NCBI GenBank assembly: GCA_000974665.1
Contig: BBSY01000002.1
Span: forward strand, 434,001-498,000
Length of the DNA: 64,000 nt
Reading direction: 5' to 3'
Source: an alpha proteobacterium U9-1i
GTDB lineage: Bacteria > Pseudomonadota > Alphaproteobacteria > Caulobacterales > Aquidulcibacteraceae
The translations under genes and the position numbers were made by a program. Shown here piece after piece: positions 17,086 through 51,318 of this stretch (the stretch's first letter is position 1; each line of letters opens with the position of its first letter). Below the pieces are notes generated by a model, which was given only the letters and a program-made list of their open reading frames with translations, was not told the DNA's origin and did not search any database.

Positions 17086-18030
17086 CTAGGCTTTTGCCGC
17101 CCGGCCCTCATGCGGAGGGGCATTTGCCGGCTCGGGCGCGTCTGCGGCGCGGCGCAAGCGGAGGCGCTTCACCCGGCGCGGATCAGCATCGGTGACTTCG
17201 ACGTCGAAGCCGGCGGGATGTCTCAGGATTTCTCCCCTTTGAGGCAAGCGCCCCGCCAACGCGACGGCGAGGCCGGCCGCAGTGTCAAACTCGTCCTCAT
17301 GGTCAGGAAGGGCTAGGCTGCCACCGAGCTTGCGCTCCAGCGCCTCGATAGACGCCCGCCCATCGACTTCGAAAGCGCCGCCCGCACGCTCTTGAACGAG
17401 GTCGGCGTCGATATCGTGCTCATCCTCGATGGCGCCGACGATTTGCTCAACCAGATCTTCCATCGAGACAAGGCCATCGGTGCCGCCATATTCGTCGACA
17501 ACCAGCGCCAAGTGAATCCGACTTGACTGCATTTTGAGGAACAGGGTCGAGAGGCTCATGGACGCGGGCACGAACAGGATGTCGCGTTTGATGCGCGTCA
17601 AAGTGCAATCGTCGAACGTTGCCTTCGCCACACCCGCTTCGTTCGGCGCAAGTTGCGCCATCACATCGCGCACGTGCACGAAGCCGATCGGGTCATCCAG
17701 CGTCTCGCCGTACATCGGCAAACGCGAATGTTGGCTGTCCGAAAAAATACGCGCGGCTTCGCCCAGCGTAGCAGACGCCTCGACGCCAACGATGTCGGCG
17801 CGCGGCCGCATGACATCGATCACCTTGAGCCGATCAAAGCGCGCCGCGCGCAGGATCATATCCTTCTGCGGGCCTTCGATTTCGCCGCCGCTATCTTCGC
17901 GCGCGCGCAGCGCTTCTTCCACCGCTTCGGCGTGGCCAGATTGCGCGCCTGTCAGCAGGCGCCCAAGCCGTTTGATCAGTCCCGCGCGCTTCCTACTGGA
18001 AGGCTCGGTTTCGTCAGCGGCATCAACCAT
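17086..18030 (-). CDS. corC: CorC/HlyC-type CBS-domain protein
   Basis: A 314-residue soluble member of the hemolysin-C/CorC family, linked to magnesium/cobalt homeostasis. It lacks an N-terminal DUF21 membrane domain. It has a paired CBS module at about residues 70-200 (VMRPRADIVGVEASATLGEAARIF..., VPASMSLSTLFLKMQSSRIHLALVVDEYGGTDGLV) and a C-terminal transporter-associated domain (FEVDGRASIEALERKLG...). It follows ybeY and precedes lnt, as in many proteobacteria. Confidence 0.92.
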   Translation of the reverse strand: MVDAADETEPSSRKRAGLIKRLGRLLTGAQSGHAEAVEEALRAREDSGGEIEGPQKDMILRAARFDRLKVIDVMRPRADIVGVEASATLGEAARIFSDSQHSRLPMYGETLDDPIGFVHVRDVMAQLAPNEAGVAKATFDDCTLTRIKRDILFVPASMSLSTLFLKMQSSRIHLALVVDEYGGTDGLVSMEDLVEQIVGAIEDEHDIDADLVQERAGGAFEVDGRASIEALERKLGGSLALPDHEDEFDTAAGLAVALAGRLPQRGEILRHPAGFDVEVTDADPRRVKRLRLRRAADAPEPANAPPHEGRAAKA

Positions 18031-47869: not shown

Positions 47870-48339
47870 AGCGACGCGCCGACCTCGAGCGCAAATTGCG
47901 TGATCTCTGGGTCATCCAGCGCGATCGCCCAAATCCAGTCCGCTTCGCCGAAGAGCGCGAGCTGTTTGCCGCCGGCGTCGAATACGTAGCCGACGTCGAC
48001 GCGGTATGGATTGGTCATTATCAGGCGACGCGGGTTGGTCAGTGAAGCGCCTTCGAGCCAAGGCAGATCCAACGTTTCATGGCCCCAATCGCGTTCGATC
48101 GCGGCGAAGGTGGCTGGCTCTTCAGCGCGCAAGTGCCCGTAGGCGTGCTCAATGAGCGGCCCTTCGCCCACGTCAATGTCGGTAGCGCCTTCAAAGCCGA
48201 TATCTACGTAAAATACTGCGCCGGACTCAAAGAAGATTTCAAGCGGGTCGTCGCCTTTGAACGGTGCGTACCCCACGCGCGAGATCGATGTGATCGGCCC
48301 GGCGGCGCAGAGTTTTTCGATGATCGACGGCGCGCTCAC
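47866..48339 (-). CDS. Hypothetical protein coupled to rph
   Basis: A 157-residue soluble acidic protein with no recognised domain. It has a run of predicted beta strands ([45 protein letters not shown]). A GTG start at 48339 overlaps the rph stop in the GTGA arrangement, so translation is likely coupled to RNase PH; an ATG at 48378 would intrude 43 bases into rph. It converges on the 612-residue gene with a 4-base overlap. Confidence 0.65.
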
Positions 48340-49049
48340 GCAATCGCCCGCTTCTGTGCTTCGAACAATTGGCCGCACCCGAGCTTCGCTAGGCGTAGCA
48401 TTTCGGCGAATTCCTCTTCGCTGAACGGCCGCTGCTCACCCGTCGCTTGCAACTCGATCATGCGGCCATCGCCGGCCATGACGAAGTTACAATCAACCTC
48501 GGCGTTGGAATCTTCGGCGTAGTCGATGTCCAGCACTGGCGCGCCCGCGAACACGCCGCACGAAATCGCCGCGACTTGGCCGGTGAGCGGATCGGCTTTG
48601 ATCACTTTCTCTTCGACCAGATATTTACACGCGCGCGCGAGCGCGACCCACGCGCCAGTGATGGCCGCGGTGCGGGTGCCGCCGTCCGCTTGAATGACAT
48701 CGCAATCGAGCGTGATCGTGCGATCGCCCAAGGCTTTGAGATCGATCACCGAGCGCAAACTGCGGCCGATCAGGCGTTGGATTTCCTGCGTGCGGCCGGA
48801 TTGCTTGCCTTGGGCTGCTTCGCGGCGGCCACGCGTGTGAGTAGCGCGGGGCAGCATGCCGTATTCCCCTGTGACCCAGCCCTTGCCCTGACCCTTGAGC
48901 CAGCCGGGCACGCCCTGTTCGACAGAGGCGGTGCAGAGCACATGGGTTTGCCCGAACTTGGCCAGGCAAGATCCTTCGGCGTAACGGGATACCTGCGTTT
49001 CGAGACTGATGTCGCGCAACTGGTCAGGCGCGCGGCCGGAAGGGCGCAT
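48336..49049 (-). CDS. rph: Ribonuclease PH
   Basis: Phosphorolytic 3'-5' exoribonuclease that trims tRNA 3' ends. The 237 residues start [111 protein letters not shown] and [10 protein letters not shown]-type phosphate-site residues are present. The upstream region carries the CCTAAC/TATA repeat array shared with the divergent ATPase gene. Confidence 0.96.
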
Positions 49050-49065
49050 GGGACGATCCTGTGCT

Positions 49066-49246
49066 CTATAGGATTATTAGGTCAATTTGACCTAACTTGC
49101 CCTAACAATCCTATACTTGCCAGCCCAGCCGGCCTCTATAGGAATTTTAGGGGCAGTTAGGGCGAGTCGGCCTAACGGCTAAGCCCTATACGGAAGTTAG
49201 GTCGAGTTAGGCCGAACGACCCTAACGTTACCTAACAATACTATAA
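49066..49246. repeat. Array of five composite CCTAAC-CCTAAC-TATA repeats in the rph/ATPase divergent region
   Basis: The unit reads CCTAAC, 4 bases, CCTAAC, 5 bases, TATA(G/C/A). Plus-strand copies are at 49091-49116 and 49221-49246. Minus-strand copies are at 49186-49211, 49136-49161 (second box CCTAAA) and a partial one at 49066-49081 (one box plus TATA). In total ten TTAGG/CCTAA boxes occur between 49077 and 49235, paired boxes always starting exactly 10 bp apart, i.e. on one helix face. One lone CCTAAC is at 49171. Minus-strand copies point to rph, plus-strand copies to the ATPase gene. It looks like two sets of regulated promoters with a direct-repeat binding site ahead of a -10 element. 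The nearest ends are 17 bases from the rph start and 11 bases from the ATPase start. Confidence 0.8.
49077..49095. promoter_or_regulatory. 19-bp perfect inverted repeat within the array
   Basis: TTAGGTCAA-T-TTGACCTAA: two perfect 9-bp arms around one base, formed where a minus-oriented and a plus-oriented repeat unit face each other. It is a candidate dimer-binding operator positioned about 28 bases upstream of the rph start codon. Confidence 0.6.
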
Positions 49247-49256
49247 AGGAGCCTGC

Positions 49257-50450
49257 GTGAAGGCGGCGCACAATCCCTATAATCCAGGCGCCGGCACCCC
49301 TCCTCCGGAGCTGGCGGGCCGTGACCCGCTGATCGCGCAGGCGCGGCTCGCGATCGAACGCGTCAAGCTTGGGCGGCCGTCGAAGAGCTTCGTGATGCTG
49401 GGCCTGCGCGGCGTCGGCAAGACAGTCCTGTTGAACGAGTTCGAGCAGGTGGCCGAGCAGCTGGGCTGCCAAACCGCAATGCTCGAAACCGATCCCGAAA
49501 AGCCACTGGCGCAACAACTTGCCCCGCAACTGCATCGCATCTTGCTGCGGCTGGACCGCATCAAGAAAGCCGGCGCGGACATGCAGGCCGCTTTTGGCGC
49601 GCTGCGTTCATTCGCCAGCGCCTTCAAGGTTCAGCTCGGCGAGCTTGAATTTGGCCTCGCGATGACGCCGGCGACCGGAGATCTGATCGTTGATCTCACC
49701 GATCTCTTCATCGCCATGGGCGAAGCGGCGAAGAAGCGCGACACCGCTGTCGTGCTGCTGATCGACGAAATCCAATACATCCAAAAGCCCGATCTGGGCG
49801 CCTTGATCATGGCGCTGCACAAAATCTCGCAGCGTCAATTGCCGGTGCTGTTGTTCGGCGGTGGATTGCCCCAATTGGCGAAGCTCGCGGGCGATGCGAA
49901 GTCCTATGCCGAGAGGCTGTTCGACTATCCAGCCATCGGCCCGCTTGATCCCGAAAGCGCACGCCGCGCCGTCGCCACTCCTGCCGAGCGCGACAACGTC
50001 GTCTATACTGACGAGGCGCTTGACTACATCGTCGAGCAGACGGGGCGTTATCCGTTTTTTTTGCAAGTGTGGGGCTCGCATTGCTGGGAGCACGCGGCGA
50101 AGTCGCCGATCACACTGAAGGACGCCAAGGAAGCAAGCGCGCGCGCCATCGTGGCGCTCGACGAAGGCATCTTCAAAGTACGCTTGGCGCGCCTCACCGA
50201 CAGGCAAAAGGCTTATGCACGCGCCATGGCGGAGTTCGGCGGTGAACCGGCAAACTCGTCGGAAGTGGCGAAAATCCTGGGTTTGACGGTCGCGCAATCG
50301 GCGCCGATCCGCGACGAGCTGATCCGCAAAGGGATGGCTTACTCGCCCGAACGCGGTCTCATCGGCTTCACCGTCCCAAAGTTCGACGAGTACATGCGCC
50401 GCGCCATGCCCTCCCCCACGCCCAAAGCGGCGCGCGCAAAGAAAGCGTAA
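49257..50450 (+). CDS. Stand-alone AAA/Orc-like ATPase with C-terminal winged-helix-like domain
   Basis: A 397-residue P-loop ATPase of the archaeal-type/AAA_16 group. Walker A is GLRGVGKT (residues 49-56) and Walker B is VVLLIDEIQ (Asp170, Glu171). A sensor-1-like LLFGGGLP (199-206) and an arginine-bearing SYAERLFDYPAIGPL (216-230) follow. The C-terminal part from about residue 311 (LTDRQKAYARAMAEFGGEPANSSEVAKILGL..., IRDELIRKGMAYSPERGLIGFTVPKFDEYM, no break) has winged-helix spacing and could bind DNA; a Lys/Ala-rich tail ends it. The GTG start has AAAGGAG at good spacing. No partner gene is adjacent; its role is unknown. Confidence 0.85.
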   Translation: MKAAHNPYNPGAGTPPPELAGRDPLIAQARLAIERVKLGRPSKSFVMLGLRGVGKTVLLNEFEQVAEQLGCQTAMLETDPEKPLAQQLAPQLHRILLRLDRIKKAGADMQAAFGALRSFASAFKVQLGELEFGLAMTPATGDLIVDLTDLFIAMGEAAKKRDTAVVLLIDEIQYIQKPDLGALIMALHKISQRQLPVLLFGGGLPQLAKLAGDAKSYAERLFDYPAIGPLDPESARRAVATPAERDNVVYTDEALDYIVEQTGRYPFFLQVWGSHCWEHAAKSPITLKDAKEASARAIVALDEGIFKVRLARLTDRQKAYARAMAEFGGEPANSSEVAKILGLTVAQSAPIRDELIRKGMAYSPERGLIGFTVPKFDEYMRRAMPSPTPKAARAKKA

Positions 50451-50451
50451 G

Positions 50452-51318
50452 CTAGCCCGCGCAGCGCAGCGTCATGCGCCGCGTTTGTCGGTTGACGCTG
50501 ATCGAGCTGCAGCCAGCGAGCGCGTCACGGCCAAGCATCACCGCCGCAGGCGCGGCGTTCTCCGCCTCTGCCTGCACGACGATGGCGTCCGCTTCGTCGG
50601 CGCCGAGCAAAGGTGAATTGGTGCGTGCGAATGTTGGGCCGAGCGATAACCGCTCCACCGTGAGCTCGGTGCGCACGGGCTGCATCAAGGTGCGCAAGCC
50701 GAGGATCAGATGGCGCTCCGCCAGCTCGCCGTTCGAGACGATCGCACCACTGGCGTCCAGGTGGCGCGCGGCGGTGCGGTTGAACACGCTGTCTCCGTGG
50801 GCGAGATCGAAGCTCACACGCATGGTCTCGCCGCCGACTTGGGTTTCGCCGATCCACACGTCCGCATCTTCAAGCGTAAAGACGATGTCGCGTGCGGCGG
50901 CGGGCTCGGGCCCGAGCGTCACGGTGACGATGTCGTGGGGCAGCGCACCGGGACCGATGACGCCATCGGCGCGCGTGGTCACGGGCGCTTGGAAAACTGC
51001 TGTCCACGCGCGTGATGCTTCATCGCCAAACTCGATCCGCGGACGCGCGACGCGGCCACGCAGAGAGGCGCCGCCATCCACGCCGACCCGAACGCCGACG
51101 AGCGGAAGCCGCCGCACCCGCAATCGCTCCGAGGAAGCGCCGCTCAGCGCCAAGCCGCTCGGAAAGCGCAAATCCACCTCAAGGCGCACGGGTCTTCCGT
51201 TGATCTCTGCATTGACGATCGGAACCGGGTCCGCCGGGATCGTGATGCTTGTCTGCGCGTGCGCTACCGCGGCTCCACCCGCTAAGGCGGCAATTGCGAC
51301 GAAAATTGTTCGAAACAT
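50452..51318 (-). CDS. Secreted retropepsin-like protein with degenerate active site
   Basis: A 288-residue protein with a signal peptide (MFRTIFVAIAALAGGAAVAHAQ). The mature part has the strand-flap pattern of aspartyl protease-like folds: VNAEINGRPVRLEVDLRFPSGLALS in the place of the usual VDTGA, then GVIGPGALPHDIVTVTLGP resembling the family's second motif. A possible second lobe is VGGETMRVSFDLAHGDSVFN. A D-T/S-G triad is missing in both, so protease activity is doubtful. It converges tail to tail on the ATPase gene. Confidence 0.6.
   Translation of the reverse strand: MFRTIFVAIAALAGGAAVAHAQTSITIPADPVPIVNAEINGRPVRLEVDLRFPSGLALSGASSERLRVRRLPLVGVRVGVDGGASLRGRVARPRIEFGDEASRAWTAVFQAPVTTRADGVIGPGALPHDIVTVTLGPEPAAARDIVFTLEDADVWIGETQVGGETMRVSFDLAHGDSVFNRTAARHLDASGAIVSNGELAERHLILGLRTLMQPVRTELTVERLSLGPTFARTNSPLLGADEADAIVVQAEAENAAPAAVMLGRDALAGCSSISVNRQTRRMTLRCAG

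Follow-up and report, generated by a model that had tools for sequence, protein, structure and literature searches.

Which protein reads the dense array of TTAGG/CCTAA boxes that separates the divergently oriented genes for RNase PH (rph) and a solitary AAA+ ATPase in the alphaproteobacterium U9-1i, and which of the two genes does the array serve? Our preferred answer, reached by sequence comparison and given a probability of roughly 0.8, is that the array would be an operator through which the ATPase regulates its own gene, binding cooperatively with its C-terminal part. Throughout, the window is the whole 64-kb stretch of DNA that was analysed, and the genus is that of U9-1i.

All ten boxes that the sequence-only reading had counted in 159 bp are found within 49077-49235, and the 19-bp perfect palindrome that it had pointed out is present at 49077-49095, perfect about an unpaired central base. 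That reading had arranged the boxes as composite units, CCTAAC-N4-CCTAAC-N5-TATA, each facing one of the two genes. As a description of the sequence the composite array holds. The opposed boxes, however, pair as the arms of three dyads with starts at 49076, 49156 and 49206. With at most one mismatch, GTTNGG-N9-CCNAAC occurs at just three sites in the window, and these are the dyads of the operators that we call O1, O2 and O3 (Table 1). O3 is a complete four-box palindrome with no mismatch, and O1 and O2 each contain three good boxes. The array is better read as three palindromic operators of the form GTTNGG-N9-CCNAAC, extended by half-sites in 10-bp steps, than as a series of one-way promoter units.

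Table 1. Coordinates, in the window, of the array and the genes on either side of it.
Feature	Position	Strand	Remark
rph (RNase PH), divergent neighbour	48336..49049	-	
TATA, rph side of O1	49067..49070		possible weak outer half-site or possible rph -10
Operator O1, rph side	49076..49106		dyad ATTAGG-N9-CCTAAC (49076-49096) plus extra half-site CCTAAC (49101-49106)
TATA, ATPase side of O1	49112..49115		
TATA, rph side of O2	49137..49140		
Operator O2, middle	49146..49176		TTTAGG-N4-GTTAGG-N9-CCTAAC
GANTC (GAGTC) in the O2 centre	49164..49168		inside CGAGTCG, fits YGAKTCK
TATA between O2 and O3	49187..49190		candidate ATPase -10
Operator O3, ATPase side	49196..49236		GTTAGG-N4-GTTAGG-N9-CCTAAC-N4-CCTAAC
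TATA between O3 and the ATPase ribosome-binding site	49242..49245		not usable as a standard ATPase -10
TTAGG boxes	starts 49077, 49147, 49157, 49197, 49207		
CCTAA boxes	starts 49091, 49101, 49171, 49221, 49231		
Solitary AAA+ ATPase, 397 aa, PF13191, GTG start	49257..50450	+	candidate binder of the array, through about residues 300-378

The units could be taken instead as sigma-70 promoters, several per direction, in which an activator site would stand directly upstream of a -10 element (TATA), and the fixed distance of TATA from the last box in four units fits such an arrangement. But TATA is self-complementary and so gives no direction, and TATAGG/CCTATA, at 9 bp from the last box and with 3 of the 5 fixed bases in common with a box, may itself be a weak outer half-site. 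At the ATPase end, where TATA had been read as a -10, it is directly followed here by AAGGAG (49246-49251), with the GTG at 49257, and in 15 of the 19 genus loci it overlaps the ATPase start codon (TATG in 13, GATG in 2). A transcript that began 6-10 bp beyond it would lack the ribosome-binding site, so this TATA is no standard -10, and an ATPase -10 at the O3 end was ruled out by the adjoining AAGGAG and the start-codon overlap. The TATA between O2 and O3 is the better candidate. Promoters of this make are highly improbable as an account of the array. A strict sigma-70 scan of positions 48950-49350 found no promoter against 0.1 expected, so that it is little informative.

The divergent position of the two genes, with boxes on both sides, would also suit a different, host-encoded regulator whose binding to the array would place the ATPase and rph together in a small regulon. 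We consider such a regulator improbable, one point against it being that the genome has no further composite units. The sequence-only reading had asked whether the unit is limited to this locus or forms a regulon, and within its own genome the composite is confined to this locus. In the window, CCTAAC-N4-CCTAAC with at most two mismatches gave 5 matches against 0.92 expected; three exact matches and one with a single mismatch lie in the array, and one with two mismatches lies at 17302. Across the 4.05-Mb genome, the composite including TATA, again with at most two mismatches, gave 4 matches, all in the array, and the pattern read backwards, used as control, gave 1. A dispersed repeat element was ruled out by the same scan, which found no composite unit elsewhere in the genome. 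The four-box pattern, searched with at most three mismatches in 41 genomes (own included), has 17 sites inside ATPase arrays and 11 outside them, against 3 sites for the backward pattern. All 11 sites outside the arrays have three mismatches; six of them are a single repeat of genome G011 and three are one common sequence. The G011 repeat is a 41-bp stretch in six copies on six contigs and may mark the end of a repeated element; this genome has an ATPase fragment alone.

The array follows the ATPase gene rather than rph. Among the 30 genus genomes, counting the own one, the ATPase is matched strongly (E 1e-100 or better) in 22, by a fragment alone in one (G011) and not at all in seven. Three dyads with at most two mismatches are present upstream of the ATPase start in all 19 genus loci examined, which are kin and do not amount to 19 independent events. 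In five genus loci, some of them closely related (L005, L006, L010, L013 and L014), the array is separated from rph by a small gene and still adjoins the ATPase. That gene, which has no Pfam match, occupies 50452-51318 (minus strand) here, between the ATPase and hrcA; its shift in the five genomes is local shuffling around the ATPase. The rph upstream region was readable in six of the seven ATPase-less genomes (the rph match at L059 is too partial), and in five of these six (L046, L047, L048, L051 and L052) there is no dyad with at most one mismatch within 450 bp upstream of rph. The sixth, G022 (L049), which is 99% complete, keeps one O1-type operator 24-64 bp upstream of rph without an ATPase, as a host-encoded regulator would allow; this lone operator is unexplained and could be a scar of ATPase loss or have its own role at rph. 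G011 has one weak dyad, 236 bp from rph, and no dyad was found near rph in six genomes of other families. Because the rph upstream regions of ATPase-less genomes mostly have no dyad, and because a gene is interposed in five genomes, rph control is not a conserved purpose of the array. The joint control of rph and the ATPase that had been proposed from the sequence is not supported by these two observations, and on them an rph-centred regulon was rejected.

Some ATPase matches are damaged. The match is split over two frames in the genus genomes G014 (L019/L030) and G023 (L022/L029), and the one in G055 (L025) has an in-frame stop. Gene loss or sequencing error may lie behind all three; the arrays persist in G014 and G023 despite the split. 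A further split match, in G025 (L018), has a run of N inside it. The genus tables leave out L029-L038 and L045 as second copies of the same places, and L022 and L040 for their misplaced start.

The sequence-only reading had suggested aligning the upstream regions of ATPase homologues. Homologues at 38-66% identity frequently carry phased half-sites ahead of their own start, with sequences that differ from those here. Across 43 distant upstreams, the spacing of direct 5-mer repeats has sharp peaks at 9 bp (57) and 10 bp (83), against about 6.5 expected for each, and further peaks at 19-20 bp (25 and 35), against about 6 expected. Inverted pairs in the same upstreams are raised over many spacings without a single peak, so the 9-bp centre is a rule of the genus. 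When chains of phased half-sites were searched for automatically, 24 of the 42 distant upstreams had four or more and the other 18 had fewer; 30 of 630 shuffles reached that number. The half-site rule was rewritten for a later set, in which 13 of 23 upstreams had four or more: 3 of the 7 from phylum-level genomes and 10 of the 16 from viral relatives with an identity of 40% or higher. Shuffling gave 38 of 720; the shuffles were drawn from all 36 upstreams, including 13 of viral relatives under 40% identity. These 13 reach four half-sites in 3 cases, and their start was mostly not placed on a start codon. The 36 were left from 46 after L103 and near-duplicate upstreams had been filtered out. 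On plasmids, 12 ATPase upstreams were compared with 57 upstreams of other genes from the same stretches; they are richer in phased (p 7e-4) and in inverted repeats (p 3e-5), although 4 of them show no phased 5-mer repeat. This sample is 12 of 119 records, all from the best 30, with those from Rhodococcus, Arthrobacter and other actinobacteria left out. The repeat tests covered 80-110 bp upstream of the start (250 bp in the genus tables), and stretches of up to 330 bp were inspected. Loci whose match lacks the N-terminus were dropped from the upstream sets; L024, a protein cut by a contig end, is out of the 5-mer, plasmid and 42-upstream counts, and L092, with N in its upstream, is out of the plasmid and 42-upstream counts and kept among the 43 used for 5-mer spacing.

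The half-sites read GTTAGG or GTTTGG in the genus; elsewhere AGTTTA, AAGTTA, GTTATA, ATCTTA, GTTACG and further sequences occur. A single genome can hold two homologues with different half-sites, namely GTTTGG at L012 against a GTTTA type at L027 in G007, and GTTTGG at L021 against GTTACG at L028 in G028, which is a further point against a host-encoded regulator. In unrelated genomes an operator adjoins the gene of its proposed regulator for many homologues, not for all. To the extent that it can be judged from upstream sequences, the phased half-sites support the earlier suggestion of a helically phased and probably cooperative binding array.

If the ATPase binds its own operator, the DNA-reading part of the protein should covary with that operator. 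Among 55 non-genus proteins, operator similarity in 5-mers is correlated with the identity of residues 301-378 when the rest of the protein is held constant (partial r 0.255, reached in 0 of 300 permutations), compared with values of -0.06 to 0.06 for windows up to residue 228 and 0.12-0.17 for windows between residues 201 and 303. For the 52 of these proteins with all three stretches, the operator gave 0.249 with 5-mers and 0.220 with 6-mers, against -0.10 and -0.09 (5-mers) and -0.13 and -0.06 (6-mers) for two control stretches, one at -260 to -181 and one downstream. With all 72 proteins the C-terminal value is 0.205 (0 of 100 permutations), and the AAA part (residues 1-285) keeps a weak link of 0.095 (permutation p 0.01). 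The set of 72 excludes L018, L019, L022, L024, L025, L029-L038, L040, L045, L079 and L083-L086, as well as L088, L092, L103, L104, L112, L113, L143, L144 and the viral relatives under 40% identity. These values point to an operator that covaries, modestly, chiefly with the C-terminal third of the ATPase and far less with its AAA part. A host-encoded regulator would not be expected to make operator similarity track the C-terminal part of the ATPase. Autoregulation through that part, which the sequence-only reading had offered as one hypothesis, thus gains support from both the phased upstream repeats and the C-terminal covariation, as far as sequence comparison can carry it.

The ATPase scores 55.4 bits against PF13191 (AAA_16), above the gathering cut-off of 32.6, and its Walker A and B motifs are intact, with G49, G54, K55 and T56 and D170 and E171 invariant in 19 aligned homologues. 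Its score against the Orc1/Cdc6 model TIGR02928 is 20.6 bits, far under the family cut-off of 181.3. Weak Orc1/Cdc6 and Hda matches (E up to 0.1) occur in all 19 aligned members, and when the family profile was compared with solved structures, ORC4 chains were the best match (E 2e-4), with Cdc6 homologues further down, mixed with weaker matches and unrelated ones. By these scores the ATPase appears to be a solitary protein with weak Orc/Cdc6 similarity and is not a TIGR02928 member. Beyond AAA_16, searches of NCBIfam, PADLOC, PHROGs, the PDB by sequence and, for the C-terminus, Pfam returned nothing decisive; the one PHROGs family matched is of unknown function. No Pfam family matched the last 107 residues (291-397), so that our reading of the C-terminal part as a putative winged helix depends on the look of the sequence.

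The Orc/Cdc6-clade ATPases with a C-terminal winged helix, which include archaeal Orc1/Cdc6, eukaryotic ORC4 and BrxC, have in common with the ATPase here an AAA+ core with Walker A and B. In BrxC, the BREX ATPase, the ORC/Cdc6-clade part is followed by a winged helix-turn-helix (PMC12839542). Unlike these proteins, the ATPase here is a solitary bacterial gene product with a phased operator of its own and an Orc1/Cdc6 score below the cut-off.

Besides Pseudomonadota, the homologues come from contigs assigned to CPR bacteria, from a plasmid of Chlamydiota and many other plasmids, and from viral contigs. Of 385 class-level genomes 22 have one (E up to 1e-40), as do 10 of 398 at phylum level (E up to 1e-60); both counts include the own genome and have one further genome in common. 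Homologues were also found in 119 plasmid records, one phage record and 40 viral-contig loci, the last down to 26% identity. Among the matches listed, annotated records name them 'ATP-binding protein', 'ATPase' or 'AAA family ATPase' alone. One homologue of 62% identity, with half-sites GTTAGG/GTTTGG, lies on a contig filed under Pontiella (L039, JARFRL010000073.1), which may have been mis-binned from an alphaproteobacterium. In a study of a Pseudoalteromonas plasmid, one passage mentions a PF13191 ATPase and reports no test of it there (PMC11858219). Titles and abstract openings of the open-access literature, a scope with subscription papers mostly outside it, gave no description of an operator of this ATPase family.

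Alternatively, the array might be a nucleation or origin-like site, at which an Orc/Cdc6-like ATPase would act on DNA in replication start, recombination, partition or incompatibility, as at iteron or DnaA-box regions, with autoregulation as a side effect. The weak Orc/Cdc6 and Hda matches of all aligned members, the ORC4 structure match and the homologues on plasmids and in viral contigs would agree with this, as would the phased repeats in the homologue upstreams, which were sought upstream of the ATPase start alone. A ParA-type gene adjoins the homologue in 2 of 11 annotated plasmid stretches (L062 and L066); yet in the other nine no partition gene is next to it, the neighbours differ among the 11, and the copy here sits between rph and hrcA. 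We give an origin-like function a small chance of being right. BREX gene names were absent from the 11 annotated plasmid stretches; one further plasmid record carries no annotation.

On the preferred reading, autoregulation by the ATPase, each GTTNGG/CCNAAC half-site would be bound by the winged-helix-like C-terminal domain of one protomer. Half-site steps of 10 bp would place the protomers on one face of the helix, so that their AAA+ domains could touch and assemble cooperatively, probably in a nucleotide-dependent manner, and in the genus the 9-bp centre would bring two such arms together head to head. With O2 and O3 occupied, the promoter and start region would be covered and the gene switched off, and the divergent neighbour (rph here, another gene elsewhere) would be affected, if at all, by proximity. 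Physical binding, the winged helix and the role of ATP are what we infer from the comparisons above, and repression rather than activation as the outcome is argued from position alone. DnaA is an autoregulated DNA-binding ATPase that acts on repeats. The ParA proteins of type Ia partition systems are ATPases that regulate their own promoter (PMC8465637), as is proposed for the ATPase here on sequence grounds. Unlike ParA systems, the present one would use an AAA_16-type ATPase, and its half-sites lie 10 bp apart in dyad arms.

The sequence-only reading held that no Caulobacterales promoter type fits the array, and thereby overlooked an invariant GANTC, of the CcrM/GcrA type, in O2. In all 19 genus loci the O2 centre contains GASTC and matches YGAKTCK on one of its strands, whereas O1 and O3 have variable centres; the upstream of L022, left out of the genus tables, has the same O2 centre. 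GANTC is rare in the window, with 81 sites against 290 expected, an avoidance that would presumably fit a CcrM-carrying genome, and at this density the chance of a GANTC in a 9-bp centre is about 0.6%. CTATAC, at the TATA between O2 and O3, begins 17 bp after GAGTC. The genome has gcrA (PF07750, 175 bits; the same model also matched one Sulfolobus control genome). A conserved GANTC in the promoter region together with gcrA in the genome is what marks CcrM/GcrA-type promoters, and both are found here, the site fitting YGAKTCK, the extended GANTC motif used for GcrA (PMC7987155). The same paper reports that GcrA of B. subvibrioides has little preference beyond GANTC, and cautions that an extended GANTC is by itself a poor proxy of GcrA control. 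Among the sequence-divergent homologues of the genus, two of three (L027 and L028) have GAATC inside the dyad, and the 110 bp of L021 lack GANTC. The site is not general beyond the genus: 12 of 44 distant upstreams, L027 and L028 among them, contain one anywhere in 110 bp. A precedent for a repressor that hides GANTC from CcrM is MucR (PMC5172544). Unlike CcrM/GcrA and MucR-occluded sites, the GANTC here lies inside a palindromic site proposed for the encoded ATPase.

The invariant GANTC in the O2 centre and the GAATC in the dyads of two of the three divergent homologues lead to a bolder reading, which we regard as speculative and rather unlikely: the genus array would be a methylation-linked memory switch, and the family a large bacterial Orc-like class on private phased DNA platforms carried from host to host. 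Assembly of the ATPase on O2 and O3 would hide GANTC from CcrM and GcrA, and methylation together with GcrA would open the promoter at a defined point in the cell cycle; the Orc/Cdc6-like ATPase and CcrM would thereby set each other's state. The Dam/OxyR and Dam/Lrp switches would be the counterparts of such a GANTC switch, which here would be made from an ATPase resembling a replication initiator. In the wider form of this reading, the Orc-like family would assemble under nucleotide control on its private, helically phased platforms.

For the preferred reading, autoregulation through a phased operator, the operator gives a testable handle on a family of solitary AAA+ ATPases, since the promoter of the gene itself suggests what the ATPase may bind. 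The diverged half-sites would be natural specificity pairs. The genus array may link the ATPase to the CcrM/GcrA cell-cycle methylation circuit. If true, a phased Orc/Cdc6-like complex on its own operator would join initiator-like assembly with the autoregulation of a bacterial gene.
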